From Oryzias latipes (taxonomy: Eukaryota; Chordata; Actinopteri; Beloniformes; Adrianichthyidae): a stretch of DNA of 64,000 nucleotides. Numbering within the stretch: the first letter of the stretch is position 1; each line of letters starts with the position of its first letter. The DNA lies in the NCBI RefSeq assembly GCF_002234675.1, contig NC_019879.2, positions 25,976,773 to 26,040,772 on the forward strand. Reading direction: 5' to 3'. Both the position numbers and the translations under genes were made by a program. Below, piece after piece: positions 7,926 through 17,628 of this stretch. A model generated the notes under the pieces. It made no database searches. It saw only the letters and a list, made by a program, of their open reading frames with translations, and was not told the DNA's origin.

Positions 7926-8503
7926 CAGTGTACCCAAAATAGACTTCTTCTCTGGTCCATTTGATGAATGAAAGCAGACTGATGGTCATTTTGAGAAGTT
8001 TTAAAACAATTTTTTATGGTTTCAAGACACAAAGTAAAAAGAAATTACCAGAAGACAATTGTTTTTTTTTTCTGGATTATTGCATATTACGAATATATTT
8101 GTGCAGTGCAAAAACCAAGCAAAAGCCGAAAAGTCCCACTTTAGAAAAATACACCTTTTCGCGTGTTTGTAGCCATTAATTTATAATATATAGCTTTTAG
8201 TATTTTCTACATTTGATTTAAACAGTATTGTGCTTTTCCATTTCTAAAATGTTAACATTTTACTTTAGACAACTGCTGATCCAAGTTCTTTTCAAAATAA
8301 AATGCACCCTGTGTTAAAAAAAATCCTCCTGCTGCAGATTTACTTTTAATTTAAAAAAAAAAGCAAGAAAAAAAAGGTATTGTCTTTGACTTAAGTGTGT
8401 CTTTGTTTATTTCTTTGTTGTTTTTTTAATTATTTATCACACTTTACAGTCACACATTGCATTTTACTTCTATTTTGTGACTGGGTCCTCCAGTTTTCAA
8501 AGA

Positions 8504-9127
8504 ATGAGCGGTTTCAATCCCGCTCCCTCAGTCATCTGTTGTTGTGTTCTTGATCCAGCAAGACTCAATGAAGGCGACGGCATTGCTGCTACTTTGAAGA
8601 GGAACAATGCAAAGTACCATGTTAGCTGTCGGTTGCTCTTCAACAACACCAAGCTGGAAAGAGCAAGGAAGCGGCGATCTGACTGTGGGAGTGAGTTGGA
8701 AGAAAGTCCCGTGAAGCACTGTCGCACAACTCATGACAGGCAAACATGTATATTGTGTGACAAAGTAGCTCCTGTCTCTGACTTGAGACAGGTAATGACC
8801 ATGAACCTAAACGACAAACTCCAGAAGTGTGCTGAAACACTCAGTGATGGGAAGCTTCTGGCAAAACTCAGTGGTGGAGACGCTATTGCACAGGAGCTAA
8901 AGTATCACAGAGTTTGTCTCACAGGTCTTTACAACAAGGAAAAGTCCTACTTGAAGAAAATTGAGAAAAACACTCATGTCTCTCAATCAGAGTCTGATGT
9001 CTTTCCAATTGTACTATCAATATCGTTTATTTTTATATCAGAAAATTACTACTTCTGCAACGCACGTCGTTTGTCACACACGTCAATTTTAAAGAATATC
9101 AAAAGACAGTATCTCGAGAACCAATAG
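8504..9127 (+). CDS. Transposon-derived ORF with two CxxC...KYHxxC modules (fragment)
   Basis: An open frame of 207 codons from the ATG at 8504. The first ~155 residues look like real protein. They hold two similar metal-binding-like modules: one with CCC...NNAKYHVSC near residues 14-45, and one with CILCDK...ELKYHRVC ending near residue 148. A basic linker ERARKRR lies between them. After about 8975 the reading drifts into low-complexity hydrophobic residues, so the original protein was probably longer and this copy is cut. It is intron-free and lies in a repeat-rich spacer. I do not recognise a named family; the layout suggests an accessory or transposase protein of a fish mobile element. 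Function unknown. It could instead be a degenerate exon of a multicopy fish gene. Confidence 0.4.
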   Translation: MSGFNPAPSVICCCVLDPARLNEGDGIAATLKRNNAKYHVSCRLLFNNTKLERARKRRSDCGSELEESPVKHCRTTHDRQTCILCDKVAPVSDLRQVMTMNLNDKLQKCAETLSDGKLLAKLSGGDAIAQELKYHRVCLTGLYNKEKSYLKKIEKNTHVSQSESDVFPIVLSISFIFISENYYFCNARRLSHTSILKNIKRQYLENQ

Positions 9128-9991: not shown

Positions 9992-10800
9992 TAGATAGAT
10001 GACTTTATTAATCCCACAATGGGGAAATTTCATTTCTGTGGCAGCAACACGACATTCAGAAATAATCTATATAATATAACATCAATAAAGGACATCACAA
10101 ATGACATTTGTATTAGATCATTAAAAATATTACTAAAATTATTATCAAAAATGAGATTCTTATTAAATAAAGAAATAAATATTAATATTAAATAAATACA
10201 GCTGCAAAAGTGTAAAAAACATGCGGTCTGCAATACATGTAAACTGTAAAAAAACATTATAAATTTTTTCAAAATACAGAAATAACTAATGAAGTTAACA
10301 CCAAAAACAAACAACTGTTCAGGAACAAAAAACAATTTAAAAAACAATTTAAAATTGAAAAACAACAACTACAACAAAAGTAAATGAATCAATGACTAAA
10401 CAGAAAAACACCCCTGGGACCGTGGAGTGTCACTTTGACACGGTGTTGTACAGTCTGATGGCTGTGGGGAGGAATGACCTGCGGTAGTGCTCCTTCTTAC
10501 ACTGAGGGTGCAACAGTCTTGTGCTGAAGGAGATGGTCAGCGCCTCTACAGTTTTGTGAAGGGGGTGGGAGGGGTTATCCATGATGGATGTCAGCTTAGC
10601 TAACATCCTCCTGTCCGCCACCTCCCCAATGGACTCAAGTGTGCAGCCCAGGACAGAGCCGGCCTTCCTAACCAGTTTGTTAAGCCTCTTCAAGTCTCTG
10701 CCTGCACTGCCCCCCGCCCAGCACACAACTCCATAAAGGACCACTGAGGCCTTCACAGTGTCGTAAAAGGTCCTCAGCAGCTGTCTGCACACACATTTTG
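9943..10800 (-). mobile_element. 5'-truncated LINE (L2/CR1-like) with microsatellite tail
   Basis: On the minus strand this reads as the end of a reverse-transcriptase ORF (10430-10792) followed by a 3' UTR. It ends in the tail TCCCCATTGTGGGATTAATAA followed by (GTCT/ATCT)n, seen on the plus strand as (GACA)n/(GATA)n at about 9943-10002. A 3' end made of a short conserved block plus a microsatellite is typical of L2-type non-LTR retrotransposons. Nothing 5' of the RT C-terminus remains. Confidence 0.8.
10430..10792 (-). pseudogene. LINE reverse transcriptase C-terminal remnant
   Basis: About 120 codons are open. They contain the post-RT segment typical of fish L2-like LINEs, with VVLYGVVCWAGGSAGRDLKR, LNKLVRKAGSVLG, the basic RRSFLPTAIRLYN near the end, and a stop after TVSK. 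The endonuclease and RT catalytic YADD region are absent, so this is a dead fragment. Confidence 0.8.
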
Positions 10801-11330
10801 GAATGATAACATATGTTTACTCTCGCATTTTCTCTTTTTATTTTATCTATTTTTTTTCTATATTAAGTTTTATTTTTTTTATTTTTTGTATGTGTTGCTA
10901 ATATTTAGAATCTTTCTAAGAATGTAACACGTTTAATCTGTATTCAGAAGTGTAATTGTTGTTAATTTTTCATTTTGTTGTTCTGTATGTTGCAATTGTT
11001 CAATAAAAAAAAGAAAAAAAAATGCACAGGATACTAACTTACATTCACAAGGATTTGTGGCACAAAAAACTGGATAAAATGGTAATTTGTGGCCACAAAT
11101 GGCAACTTATGCACACAAAATGCTCAATTGATTAAACAAAATTTTGATTTATTTTTATGTCATGTTCAGGATTCCGTAAGATTTCAAATGTTCTGATTTC
11201 CGAGGAGCCCGCGAACGCATCATGTGGATTCAGAGGTAAAGTGGGTGTGTTCTAATGTCGTCAAGCTCATTTACTCCGCCTTTTTCCCCATATATGGATT
11301 GCAAAACGGTTAGGCGTGTCCTTTGGGTCG
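10801..11330. other. Spacer upstream of naxd
   Basis: AT-rich to about 11,190, then GC content rises toward the naxd promoter (11,200-11,440). No coding region seen. Confidence 0.45.
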
Positions 11331-11439: not shown

Positions 11440-14400
11440 ATGTTCAGAATCTCAGGCGTACTCTTTTCTTCTTCGAAACGCATTTCCTGTTTAGGTAAGG
11501 AGAAAAGTCACAGTAAGAGTGTCTTCCAGGCTGGTAACGGTTGGGTAAATGCCTCAAATTCAGACGCAGCTCGCCTTGTGGCTCATCCCGGTTGCACTGT
11601 CGATTGTGTGCACGTTCTTCTGTTATAACGAGAAAGGTAACATCAAACAGGAATTTTTTATAAGAATTTATATTTTTTTTAATGTATAAAGACAAACAAA
11701 GCTGTAACCAGAACTGTAATGTCGCTACGGAGTTTTATTATGTGGCTGTTGACAGCTCTATTGAAATGTTGGTCTTTAGGACCCAGCAGGTATCTAGCAT
11801 GAAGGACGGAGGGCGAAGCAGAAAAGGTGAAATGAAGCTCCGATGACTGATCAGAGGTCAGTTTGGAAAATTTACCAATGTGGACAAAGATCGTAAACAC
11901 CGCTCCGGAGCCTGACCTCCGTTCAGTTTGTCCAACGCCGCTAAGCTACTTAGTTTTATGGCGACCTGAAGGTATAAGCATTCTGGTAGGCTTTAATTAG
12001 GATGCGGGGAGTCGATGGGCGCGCGCTGTTGTCACATACCTAAAGTTCAGCGCAACCGTTTTAACTTAAGCTAACCCCGAACTATCAAAATGGCCCCTGG
12101 ATGCTGTCTGGGTCGGTGTGGCGCCGCGCAGCTTTGATGCAAGGATCCAGCGCGGTCTTCCGTGACAGTCTGCAACATCTTCATCCAGCCCGCTGAGGCG
12201 GGTGGAGGTTGCTGCGGACCGGCGCGATGCAAGCCAACACGACGCGCGGCTTCCTGTGGTCGGACGTGGAGACCAGGACTTTGCTGGACATCTGGGGGGA
12301 GCAGGACATCCAAGCGGCGCTGGACGGAAACTTCCGAAACAGCTTCGTGTACCGCGACGTGGCCCGCAGGCTGGGCGCCATGGGCTTCGAGAGGACCCCG
12401 GAACAGTGCCGAGTGCGCATCAAGAGCCTTAAGAGGCAGTATCTGCTGGCCAGGGAAGGGAACCTGCGAAACAACGGGCAATATCACAAGATCAGTAAGT
12501 TCTATGGCACCATGGAGAGGATCCTGAGCAGCCGGTTGGCTCTGGACCCGCAGGAGTTTGTGGAGGGTGGCGCAGGAGCGGAGGAGACCGGGGAGGGCCT
12601 GGAGGAGGACGCAGAGGATGTCCAGGATGCGTACTCGGAGGGCGCAGGGGAATGTTATCCCGCAGAGACTGAGGTGAAACTGGAATATCCGACCGTCCCA
12701 ATCCCCATCCCGGTGAAAGTCACTGTGGGTAAGAGGAAGTCCACTTTGTGGTTCTGTTACGTTTCTGTTCACATGCGCTCACAGAACCCGCCTCTCCTTC
12801 AGGCACTTCAGCAAGACCGCCCAACAGCAGCCAGCCTGCCAGCAACCTGTCGGCTAGAGCACCCAAGCGCCCCAGGAAGCGGCGCTCCAACTTCCCCATG
12901 GAGAAAATGATGGAGCAGTTCCTGGAGCAGAGCGCCCAAGCTGAGGAAAACTTCTACCGGCTGGAGGAGCAGCGCCTGCAGGCGGAGGACCGCCGTCGAG
13001 AAACCGAACACGCCCGGGAGCTGCACATGCTCCAGATGCTTGGTCAGATGTTCTCCAGCATGTCCTCATCCAGGGCTGTCAGCTCTACCGTCGGCTCCGC
13101 CGCCTCTCCCAGCAAGCCGCCCCCTCCTGTCCGTCCTCCAGTCATCTCCAGTGCGTCCCACTCTCACGTCAGGCGACCTTCAGCCCAAACAGACTGTTTC
13201 TCTCAGCAGAGCCAGTCGCTGAGCGCAGAAACTCAGGCATTAGGTATTTGTTCTGGGGTTGTGTGTGTGAATCCTCGGGGCGGGATTCCTCAAAAGAATA
13301 TTGGATCAGCTTCTACTTTGTTATTTATTTTTTTTTGAGCTATACTTTTGAGGAAGAAATTGAAATGTGGGCCAACCGACTAATATGTTTGGTCTGTTCT
13401 CTTGTTTATCTTGCCAGCCTTTGAGCGTTACTTCACTTTGGGTTCTTCAGCACACAGAGGCATGGATGAAGACATCTTCTCGTTGGTAAAGACCATCATT
13501 CCTCCCCTGACATCCAAAAAGCACAAAGGACAAGACGGCCGGATCGGTATCATCGGAGGATGCCAAGAGTACGTACCACAGATATCCCCTTTTTGAACAA
13601 AATCAATCCCCCAAACATCACGTGAAATCCCTCCTTTCAACTTCTGTCCCCAAAGCTACACCGGAGCTCCATACTTTGCTGCCATCTCTGCGCTGAAAGT
13701 GGTGAGCCGGAGCTCACATTCTTAAAATTGATGTTGAACCTCGATTGTGACGGAGTTTTGTTGCTTCCAGGGAGCAGACTTGTCCCATGTGTTCTGTACC
13801 AAAGATGCTGCCACTGTGATCAAGTCTTATAGCCCTGAACTTATAGTTCACCCGGTTCTGTGAGTACACACCCTTTTCTTTGAAGTTTCAAAAAAAAAAT
13901 TCAAAATACGAAATAAATTTTAATCAAAATGACAGATAACGGTGGGTATTAGTATCTTAATCTTAGAATAGTTCTTCATGTACTGTTAGTTATTTAAAAA
14001 AAAAAGGTCTAGAGATGGAAAGATGATGCTAATAAAATGAACTTAAGGTTTCTACATCTTGTAGGTGTAAAAGAAGATCATACCATCCCTCCTACCATGT
14101 AGATGTCCATGCTGATGAAGTTCTTCTAAAATGACTTTATTTTCAGCAAACATAAGACTTTCTTTTGATTTGACAGGTCCAGAGAAATTGCTCTGTTTCC
14201 CAATTTTTCTCCAGTTTTGGGAATCTTCTTCCTTACCTAAAAGAGGAGTTCTACCAAACAACTAGACTTATCATTCCTTTTAGTTTTGCGTCAACAGGCT
14301 TAAAAAAAAGAGGCTGTATAGTGTTGGTTTGCATTTTGGAGTTTGCTTGTTTTACCCCTGATCACACAGGGTTTCCCCCTTAAGTGTCAGTGTCTGTGCG

Positions 14401-17400
14401 ATCCTCGGCTTGTAGAAGTGGACTGGGACCGGACCGAGGGAAAGTGCTACTGGGCCACAGGAGGGGAAAAAAAACTACATTTTTTTATGTTTAATATCTA
14501 ATCTGATTGAGACTGGATCCCCTCCACCGCATCCGACTCATTCTTGACGCATGTCGAGTCACTCCGTCACGTGTCGAAAATCCACTGCTTTCTTAAAGTG
14601 CCCAACCGCTAAACTGACACCCCCGAGCTAGCAAATTAACATAAAACAAATGTATTTGGAAAGTTTCTATTAGCAGAAAAGATCCAGTGAGGTAACAGAA
14701 AAAGAACATTGGACTTCAATGTAAAAGAAAGCTGCATTTAAAAGACAAGAATCAGAGGTCTTTACTCCAAATCTGGATGTATTTTGACAGTTGTTCCCAC
14801 ACACCAGAAAAGTAATGCAGAATATTCTGCAATGCTAATGCAATTAGGATGCTGCTAATAAAGTAAAGTTGTTCAAACAGTGGATTCACGTTTATGATAT
14901 TTCAAAATGCCAGTTTTATTCACCTTTATTTTCTTTTACCCATCGCACCTTAAATGTTGGACGAGGCTGAAGTTGGTGTTGGATATTTTTAGCTTCCACT
15001 CTGACAGTTCTGGCTTTAGAGGAAAATCTATATAGCATTTTAACGGTTCTTACAAAAAAAGAGTGAAAAAATGAAGTTCAAAGGAGTTGCAGATATTTGA
15101 CAGAGGATGAAGATAAATGTTACCCTCAAAAGCTAAGGGAAACTGGGGGGGAAAAAAATCACATTCACAGACCGATCCGTGAAAGTATTGTCTGACAGTA
15201 AACCGGTCCATGGCCTGAAAGGTTGGGTGCAGAAAACCAGTGACATCTGCTGAGAAACAGTTGGGATTGGCTCCTGTAAACTCTCTGACCTCCGTTGGGA
15301 CAAAGCATCAGATGCTCATTGTGGTCCAAGATGTAGCTCTTGGGTTTAAAGTGGTTTTCTGAACATTTCTAGGTCCAACCTTTGAATAGACTTGTTGCTA
15401 GGACGACCACTGCTGACATCTTTGGCATCTATTTCAAAGTTTTGAATCATTTTTTTCTGCAAAACAAAAAAAAATACAATTTAATTAGTAATTGAAAGCC
15501 TAGAAACAATGAAAACTGGTTAAAAAAAACTAAACTGGTAGCTACTATGTGTGATATAGCAGCCAGTAGAAGAAGTATGGTAATCTGAAGGACCTGAATT
15601 CTGACACAACTACACAACTGTGCTGCGATACAATCAAAATCAGAACTTGACCTGCACTTCAGTACAAAAACATTGATTTTCTTCCCTGTTTTCTTTTCCT
15701 GGTTGAATTCTTTAGGCATGACTTCAGCAGCGTTTTATATCCATGTATGGCTGAACAGCATATGTGGTACTGTATTGGTTTAAATCAGACCGTATCACAT
15801 TTATATTTGGGTTTTTTTGTTGAAAAGAAAAAGGTACAAACCTTTTTTTTTTGCACATATGGTATATTATGATTTGAAATGTAATGAAACAGATTCAATT
15901 CCAAGCGCTGAGGTAAATTTGATCTTCATTTTTAGTGGAATCGGATCTTACTTTTTTAGTTTTGTGTTTCTTTTACTTGATCTTTGTTCCAGTTTTTTGG
16001 AACACGTGTGTAAGGCTTTGCTTCTGTGTGCATCAGGGACAGTCTGAACGCCGTGGAGGAGATAGAAAAGTGGCTGCCACGGCTTCACGCTGTGGTGGTG
16101 GGACCAGGTCTGGGCAGAGAAGACGTTTTATTGAAGACAGCCAAGGCAGGTGGAGTCTGTTCATGCACAGAGAAGTCCTGTCGTTTGTCTCACGTGTCCC
16201 TCAAACACATCTTTGTTGAAAAAAAATCTCCACGTCTACCTTTAAAATGTGAGCGTTTGGGGGGAAAAAACATGAACTTTATTTTTCTTTCAGGAGGTTA
16301 TTGAAAAGTCTAAAGCAAGAGATATTCCTGTTGTCATTGATGCGGTGAGTCATTCTTTTAAATTAGACTCACAACATATTATTTAAAAAGATTTCTAATT
16401 CATATTTTTGTGGTTTCTAACAGGACGGATTGTGGTTAGTTACCCAGCAGCCATCTGTAATTCAGGGGTACCAAAAGGGCATTCTGACGCCAAATTTCAT
16501 GGAGTTCACCAGGCTGTACGAAGCCCTGGTGGGTCTCTGGTCAGTCACCAACTTTTGAATGAAGAATATTGACTGTGTGCTAATGAGTGTTGCTGTCTCA
16601 GCACCATGAACCCATGAATGCTGGCGATCGTCAGCGCAGCGTTCTGCAGCTCAGCGCAGCCATGGGCAACGTCACTGTGGTGCTGAAGGGGGATCAGGAT
16701 CTCATTTCAGATGGTAGCAAAGGTTGGTATTATTCCTTATAGTATTTAATACATCTTGAAGCTCTTTCTCTCTGTAACTGCATTTTGTCTGTGGTTTCTC
16801 CTAGTGTACTCATGCAGCATTGAGGGCAGCGGGAGAAGATGTGGCGGACAAGGAGACCTCCTGTCTGGATCTTTGGGAGTGCTGGCACATTGGGCTCATT
16901 CTGCACCTGAAATCAAAGCCAGAAGGTCAATTTGGTTTTGTATTCTAGTTTAAAGACTCACCCTCATCCTCTTTTGATTTATGGTTAAAAAAACATTCCC
17001 AGTGATCTTTTAATAATGATTTAGCTGTTTTTAGGCCAAAATCAAGAATATCTGTCGTTTTCTAGGACATAGTTTCTGCAGAGCAGCAGTAGTTCTTTAG
17101 AAATTCACGTCTGAGTTGTGGGTATCCCTGGAGCTGAGAGCTCTCTGTTTAAATCAGCCCAGGGTATTTTTTACGTCACAAATAAGCAAATTTTAAAACA
17201 GCACTTCTCCTAATTTACAATTGGAATAAAGAAATGCTCAGAAATGGAATTTTTAACTTTTTTCTTCATATTTGCCCTTCATCATGAGAAAAGTGCTTTG
17301 AACATGTTTAAAACACAAAAAACACAACTTTCATCTGAGTGAGTCTTTAAAAAAAAACACATTTCCTGCATTACTATATCTAATGCCATAAAATGTAACA

Positions 17401-17628
17401 TTTTGGTTTGGGTTAACCTGGTCAACAAAATATCATTATTCTTCTGTGACCTAAATGGCGATTTTGTTTTTGTCCAGTTTGAATCCATCGGTGGTGGCAG
17501 CTTTTGGAGCTTGTTCCCTCACCAGGTGGTGCAACAATCAAGCTTTTCAGCGGCATGGCAGATCCACCACCACCACAGACATGATCCAGGAGATTGGCCC
17601 TGCCTTCAGGAAGCTCTTTGAGAGCTGA
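11440..17628 (+). CDS. naxd: ATP-dependent (S)-NAD(P)H-hydrate dehydratase
   Basis: Ten exons: 11440-11494, 13418-13568, 13656-13701, 13771-13859, 16037-16145, 16294-16344, 16424-16528, 16602-16722, 16805-16925, 17478-17628, giving 332 aa (human 347). NAXD repairs damaged NADHX/NADPHX using ATP, working with the epimerase NAXE. Visible motifs are [17 protein letters not shown] in exon 5 (about residue 135), DADGLW, TPNFMEF (human has TPNHVEF) and the ATP/catalytic [12 protein letters not shown] in exon 9 with Asp about 260. Exon 1 encodes [18 protein letters not shown], rich in Ser/Arg with no acidic residue, a likely mitochondrial presequence. An internal ATG at 13462 could start a cytosolic form ([10 protein letters not shown]). 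Intron 5 uses a GC donor (AAG|GCAGGT); no GT donor nearby keeps frame. Intron 1 holds a SANT-like gene in the same orientation, and intron 9 holds a MITE. Confidence 0.93.
12227..13338 (+). CDS. Myb/SANT-like (trihelix-type) DNA-binding protein nested in naxd intron 1
   Basis: Exon 1 (12227-12728) and exon 2 (from 12803) join through a 74-bp intron (GTGG|GTAAGA ... CCTTCAG|GCACTT). The start is the ATG at 12227; the frame is open a little upstream but lacks another ATG. Residues ~8-95 form a Myb/SANT-like domain ([49 protein letters not shown]). An acidic Glu/Gly stretch follows, then a basic patch ([10 protein letters not shown]), then a charged, probably coiled-coil helix ([20 protein letters not shown]...) and a Ser/Pro tail. 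This is the usual plan of transposon-domesticated MADF/Myb-like regulators, so a nuclear DNA-binding role is inferred. Reading through gives a stop at 13338, with no nearby AATAAA. Alternatively a good donor at 13243 (GCATTAG|GTATTT) splices into naxd exon 2 in frame. The region is GC-rich (CpG-like) compared with its surroundings. Confidence 0.75.
13860..16036. other. naxd intron 4, no gene seen
   Basis: A 2.2 kb AT-rich intron, the longest in naxd apart from intron 1. Only short chance ORFs are present; no repeat family was recognised with confidence. Confidence 0.5.
16950..17350 (+). mobile_element. TTAA-type MITE, copy 3 (complete, short form)
   Basis: This is the best-defined copy for its ends: TTAA|AGACTCACCC at the left and GTGAGTCT|TTAA at the right. 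That gives a TTAA target duplication and a terminal inverted repeat beginning AGACTCAC. TTAA duplication points to the piggyBac or Kolobok superfamily. It lies inside naxd intron 9, is about 400 bp long, and lacks part of the interior present in copies 5-7. Confidence 0.8.

Follow-up and report, generated by a model that had tools for sequence, protein, structure and literature searches.

The 64,000-nt stretch of Oryzias latipes DNA analyzed here (hereafter the window) lies on contig C21 and carries on its plus strand a naxd gene, whose coding exons were rebuilt as one continuous frame followed by a poly(A) signal. Most of the predicted product is spanned by the Carb_kinase domain PF01256 (E 2.2e-56), and the product matched PDB entry 6efw, annotated as an ATP-dependent (S)-NAD(P)H-hydrate dehydratase, with an E value of 1e-70. 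Exon 2, the first exon common to all naxd forms, has a strong acceptor, with TTGCCAG directly before position 13418. The coordinates of all features are summarized in Table 1.

Table 1. Features of the naxd locus in the window and the related SANT-enzyme gene on contig C6
Feature	Position	Strand	Basis or remark
naxd first exon, mitochondrial type	11440..11494	+	phase 1 end; targeting class predicted from composition
Second naxd first exon, ER/signal-anchor type	11549..11636	+	phase 1 end; predicted class
SANT exon 1: Myb/SANT-like domain and acidic linker	12227..12728	+	ATG 12227; phase 1 end
SANT exon 2: basic motif, coiled-coil-like stretch, Ser/Pro/Gln-rich tail	12803..13243	+	coiled coil by eye
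Intron if the fusion is made, otherwise read-through tail	13244..13417	+	frame reading
naxd exon 2, first common exon	13418..13568	+	acceptor ctcttgtttatcttgccag
Remaining common naxd exons	13656-13701, 13771-13859, 16037-16145, 16294-16344	+	rebuilt frame
Remaining common naxd exons, 3' part	16424-16528, 16602-16722, 16805-16925, 17478-17628 (stop)	+	rebuilt frame
naxd poly(A) signal AATAAA	17711..17716	+	hexamer scan
SANT-coiled-coil-ACC-synthase-like gene	L032 (C6:22246200-22256100), 1447-2877 and downstream exons		open frame, domain matches

An earlier annotation made from the letters alone (the sequence-only reading) had overlooked the ER-type first exon. Since this exon exists beside the mitochondrial-type one, naxd already possesses two alternative first exons that end in phase 1. 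The leader encoded by the mitochondrial-type exon has a net charge of +3 in its first 25 residues, and the ER-type exon reaches a 15-residue hydropathy maximum of 2.31. Putative use of the two exons yields complete frames of 332 aa (mitochondrial type) and 343 aa (signal-anchor type). The arrangement resembles that of human NAXD, for which forms in mitochondria, ER and cytosol are described (PMC11715087; PMC12861718), in that several starts lead into one common catalytic part and to different compartments, and first exons of mitochondrial and ER type are found here as well. In the common part, exon 5 has a GC donor (GCCAAG/GCAGGT at 16145/16146), the sole boundary among those tried that kept the frame.

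The SANT-like gene that the sequence-only reading had placed within naxd intron 1, in the orientation of naxd, was recovered, and its two exons could be read directly. The first contains the Myb/SANT-like domain PF13837 (Myb_DNA-bind_4) at residues 11-98 (E 2.9e-17; 63.3 bits vs a Pfam cut-off of 27) and is followed after 12728 by the phase-1 donor GTAAGA. A single-sequence structure model of this exon, addressing its tri-helix fold, was poor (mean pLDDT 46.4). The acceptor of SANT exon 2 at 12803 scored well, and the basic motif of this exon is PKRPRKRR. Around the SANT start, G+C content was 0.60 and the CpG observed/expected ratio was near expectation (0.99 in 12000-12300), a composition that fits a SANT promoter of its own without proving one.

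Host SANT genes of the tri-helix Myb/SANT-like type are often traced to Harbinger. The window locus shares a Myb/SANT-like domain, of presumed tri-helix type, with the Harbinger proteins and host derivatives described in PMC9179366; in contrast to Harbinger-type genes, no transposase was found beside it, and it was not taken as a transposon copy, as a 1,401-base query matched the genome searched (734 Mb in 25 contigs) once, making it single-copy by DNA. No strong repeats were found flanking the locus, and no relatives were confirmed in the viral contig and genome contig collections. Among 31 loci (L001-L031), the search for a close paralogue of SANT exon 2 returned only the self-match of the locus, which had been entered twice (L001 and L016). 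In a tree of SANT domains, the window copy grouped with copies on C9 and C23 with a support of 91/78, which is below the star level of the tool. The nearest relatives include Myb/SANT domains that form a cluster of about 6 kb at C23:13820964-13826527.

We then considered whether the SANT exons are joined to naxd. The sequence-only reading had stated that splicing 13243 to 13418 would give a product of about 630 aa with no stop, and that 13243 leaves phase 1 as does the naxd exon ending at 11494. Both statements held, with the boundary CATTAG/GTATTT read directly and the rebuilt frame running over 628 aa to the naxd stop, so that the SANT domain (PF13837), the coiled coil and the enzyme (PF01256) share one open frame. 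The same reading had called the donor consensus-like, which proved wrong: its log-odds score was -1.08 under a human donor matrix. On the plus strand of the window, 502 of the 3,495 GTs scored at least as high. A strong splice donor was thus not found at 13243, which fell below all 20 comparison donors from naxd, SANT exon 1 and the accs gene on C6 (minimum -0.64); this set omitted the naxd GC donor and one accs exon end that had no GT close by, and each accs donor was the top-scoring GT in a range of a few bases, a choice that flatters the set.

Four GTs between the start of SANT exon 2 and the read-through stop matched or exceeded the score of 13243, three in phase 1 (13042, 13150 and 13243 itself) and one in phase 0 (13167), the best being 13150 with 0.45. 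The site at 13243 is one of three comparable in-frame donors (13042, 13150 and 13243), any of which may be the one used. The SANT exon 1 donor at 12728 was stronger (2.96) and is in frame with naxd exon 2 too, giving 481 aa. The chance of a phase match alone is about 1 in 3. When the codons between the start of SANT exon 2 and the read-through stop were shuffled 5,000 times, a phase-1 GT of equal quality appeared somewhere in this stretch in 85% of the shuffles and in its last 150 nt in 37%. Because 85% of the shuffles contain a comparable site, the phase match alone is not beyond chance, and we rejected this cheaply obtained match as proof of a fusion.

The phases also permit SANT exon 2 (441 nt, phase 1-1) to be inserted before naxd exon 2 and after either of the two naxd first exons, mitochondrial or ER, which would give proteins of 479 or 490 aa with no SANT domain. 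We considered this insertion very improbable: the frames are open and the acceptor at 12803 is good, but the insertion depends on the same weak donor at 13243 and nothing that we found requires it.

Another outcome is that the weak GT at 13243 is read through and SANT is an ordinary stand-alone nested gene. The frame would then gain 31 residues, ending at the TGA at 13336-13338 after 345 aa in total, and the transcript would be cleaved just downstream via AAGAAA at 13354 and a T/G-rich stretch doubling as the naxd acceptor region. The frame is indeed open to 13338, the donor is weak as noted, and AAGAAA comes 15 nt after the stop. On the other hand, AAGAAA is a rare poly(A) signal, and it was alone among 12 hexamers tested before naxd exon 2. 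The sequence-only reading had already noted the lack of a clear poly(A) signal there, in agreement with our scan of 13101-14200, where AATAAA first occurred at 13912 and ATTAAA was absent. Such hexamers are common: in 401 control windows of 175 nt from naxd intron 4, at least one of the 12 was contained in 276, and AATAAA or ATTAAA in 69. If a SANT transcript with its stop at 13336 were instead spliced through the later naxd exons, the stop would lie far upstream of many exon junctions, which is a known trigger of mRNA decay.

The composition of the read-through tail also bears on the stand-alone gene. GC3 was 0.70-0.85 over codons 1-290, 0.50 over codons 291-314 and 0.26 over codons 315-345, and the last 31 residues are hydrophobic after a polar tail, as if coding stopped near the donor at 13243. 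The best GC3 change point was near 13225, with 13123 and 13174 nearly as likely. Codons 315-345 scored -0.31 bits per codon under a codon model built on 1,042 codons from four stretches with bounds set partly by eye. Since the running score showed a plateau between about codons 304 and 340, peaking at codon 328, the coding-potential curve does not fix the end at 13243. A sharp coding end at this position was accordingly not adopted, as GC3 fits it loosely and the codon score is undecisive; together the two measures are only suggestive of a coding end near 13243. The putative intron also contains a 15-nt inverted repeat (13286-13300 and 13341-13355, 93% complementary); a hairpin in 13286-13355 was rejected, its folding energy being ordinary (z -0.50 and -0.43).

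A SANT paralogue with a plan like that of the window's module was found at C6:22247679-22247930 (loci L008 and L032). Its SANT exon has 643 coding nt and ends in phase 1, and its second exon of 701 nt, which encodes a basic motif and a coiled coil, runs stop-free into ACC-synthase-like sequence (448 aa, 0 stops). The gene matched both PF13837 and PF00155; its downstream exons matched Aminotran_1_2 with an E value of 6.9e-32 and the plant ACC synthase 7dlw with 1.4e-29. As the exon is free of stops and the 7dlw match starts 17 residues inside the end of the coiled-coil exon, a SANT-coiled-coil module is physically joined to a different enzyme in the same genome. In both genes a SANT exon and a phase-1 intron are followed by a basic motif, a coiled coil, a Ser/Pro-rich stretch and a metabolic enzyme, but on C6 the coiled-coil exon itself enters the enzyme whereas the naxd joint requires a splice. 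Over both exons, the modules were 27% identical at 201 aligned positions (E 1e-17), with the likeness mainly in the SANT domain; the second exons alone were weakly similar (E 0.002 in a two-sequence comparison and 0.08 by tblastn).

In humans, MSANTD3-TMEFF1 is known as a read-through pair in which the Myb/SANT gene lies upstream, and TSNARE1 is a Myb-like/SNARE fusion. Both resemble the present case in that a Myb/SANT gene stands upstream of, and is joined to, an unrelated gene, but their partners are different ones and none is a metabolic enzyme. MSANTD3-TMEFF1 is also a precedent for low-level conjoined transcription, by which SANT would have its own 3' end, some read-through would be spliced into naxd exon 2 and the resulting fusion protein would have no role, as proposed for many read-through pairs. 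The shared strand, the short spacing and the strong naxd acceptor are in line with such transcription, and all the good phase-1 donors would make accidental joints readable. Nevertheless, conjoined transcription by itself leaves unexplained both the exonic fusion on C6 and the long extensions of curated zebrafish RefSeq proteins described in PMC12861718, and we regard it as quite improbable.

Using PF13837, we scored 150 of 246 first-look candidates in the genome and obtained at least 90 matches. In 21 of 22 other SANT regions (L032-L053), the sense-strand frames over about 4 to 10 kb were read with a minimum length of 28, 75 or 90 aa; L035, the C23 cluster, was left out. The gene on C6 was the only exonic SANT-enzyme fusion (1/21). 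SANT with a coiled coil and its own stop, judged by eye, was seen in nine of the 21 regions, so the stand-alone SANT-coiled-coil gene is the commoner form, a point in favor of a stand-alone nested gene in the window as well.

An enzyme gene lay downstream on the same strand in two of the 21 regions, namely paics (L034) and pycr3 (L042), with the enzyme names assigned by eye. At L034 (C4:3977000-3986900), three tandem SANT domains at about 450-2840 are followed by a paics-like gene from 4268; this gene has its own first exon and was not taken as a SANT fusion. At L042 (C4:20789100-20799000, minus strand), a SANT exon (814-1303 of the reverse complement) precedes a pycr3-like gene (3836 onwards) by about 2.5 kb. 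The first visible exon of this gene begins in phase 0 with VKLDPD before MDSQ, so that an upstream exon is needed. The SANT frame at L042 has its own stop and contains four in-frame GTs above -1.1, all in phase 0.

In zebrafish, the naxd RefSeq isoforms 1 and 2 are described as having long N-terminal extensions that neither resemble human NAXD nor contain a predicted targeting peptide, and the recombinant zebrafish enzyme that was assayed is isoform X7 (PMC12861718). An extension with neither a human counterpart nor a targeting peptide is what would be expected of a SANT extension, although the zebrafish extensions were compared by their description alone and the window's SANT exons by sequence. 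That the zebrafish extensions are the SANT module is our guess; the terms SANT, Myb and DNA-binding are absent from the main text of PMC12861718. A stand-alone SANT gene would not account for these N-terminal extensions, and on balance we consider such a gene less likely than the fusion but a serious rival to it. In the literature, no description of a SANT-naxd or SANT-accs fusion was found at the title and abstract level, which does not prove its absence from print. PMC6816169 was set aside as a source, the part of it consulted concerning human and E. coli proteins.

Of the alternatives left by the sequence-only reading, that of alternative first exons or a fusion is our best explanation. The in-frame layout on which it was based stood, but the weak donor and the cheap phase match count against it. 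The fusion gains from independent facts, namely the two other phase-1 first exons, the C6 fusion and the zebrafish extensions. We therefore estimate at roughly 0.55 the probability that the SANT exons are a third naxd first-exon set making a SANT-NAXD fusion. The observations are the arrangement and phases of the exons, the open frames, the two domains and the sister fusion on C6, and from these we propose the following course. Transcription would start in the G+C-rich stretch before 12227, a presumed promoter, and run through both SANT exons, and a phase-1 donor late in the second (13243, or 13150 or 13042) would be joined to naxd exon 2 at its acceptor (13418). With 13243 as donor the product has 628 aa, and it would consist of the SANT domain, an acidic linker, a basic nuclear-signal-like motif, the coiled coil, a Ser/Pro-rich tether and a complete NAD(P)HX dehydratase. 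The enzyme would thus be placed in the nucleus or on DNA, beside mitochondrial and ER forms from the exons at 11440 and 11549. From the domains and the basic motif we predict that this NAD(P)HX dehydratase would act in the nucleus or on DNA. No SANT module was found in the descriptions of human NAXD consulted (PMC11715087; PMC12861718), and compared with the human gene a third, DNA-binding start would bring in the nucleus as a further destination.

If the fusion is made, damaged NAD(P)H may be handled at chromatin too, and SANT-NAXD would account for the N-terminal extensions, so far unassigned, that the main RefSeq isoforms of zebrafish carry. Because the enzyme assayed was isoform X7, the question also bears on zebrafish models of NAXD deficiency. 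Together with the C6 gene, the locus would point to a route by which Myb/SANT genes join enzymes. As a more speculative and rather unlikely extension, teleosts may repeatedly cap metabolic enzymes at the N-terminus with a Myb/SANT-basic-coiled-coil module that binds them to chromatin, by splicing at naxd, within one exon at accs and perhaps at pycr3, with the naxd form serving as a nuclear NAD(P)HX repair enzyme that protects the pool of NAD(P)H at DNA.

Two further frames were noted in the window. Upstream of naxd, a minus-strand frame at 10430-10816 resembles by eye the C terminus of a LINE reverse transcriptase. On the plus strand at 8390-9127, a 245-aa open frame was found, the later part of which weakly matches Pfam DUF5929 (E 0.059).
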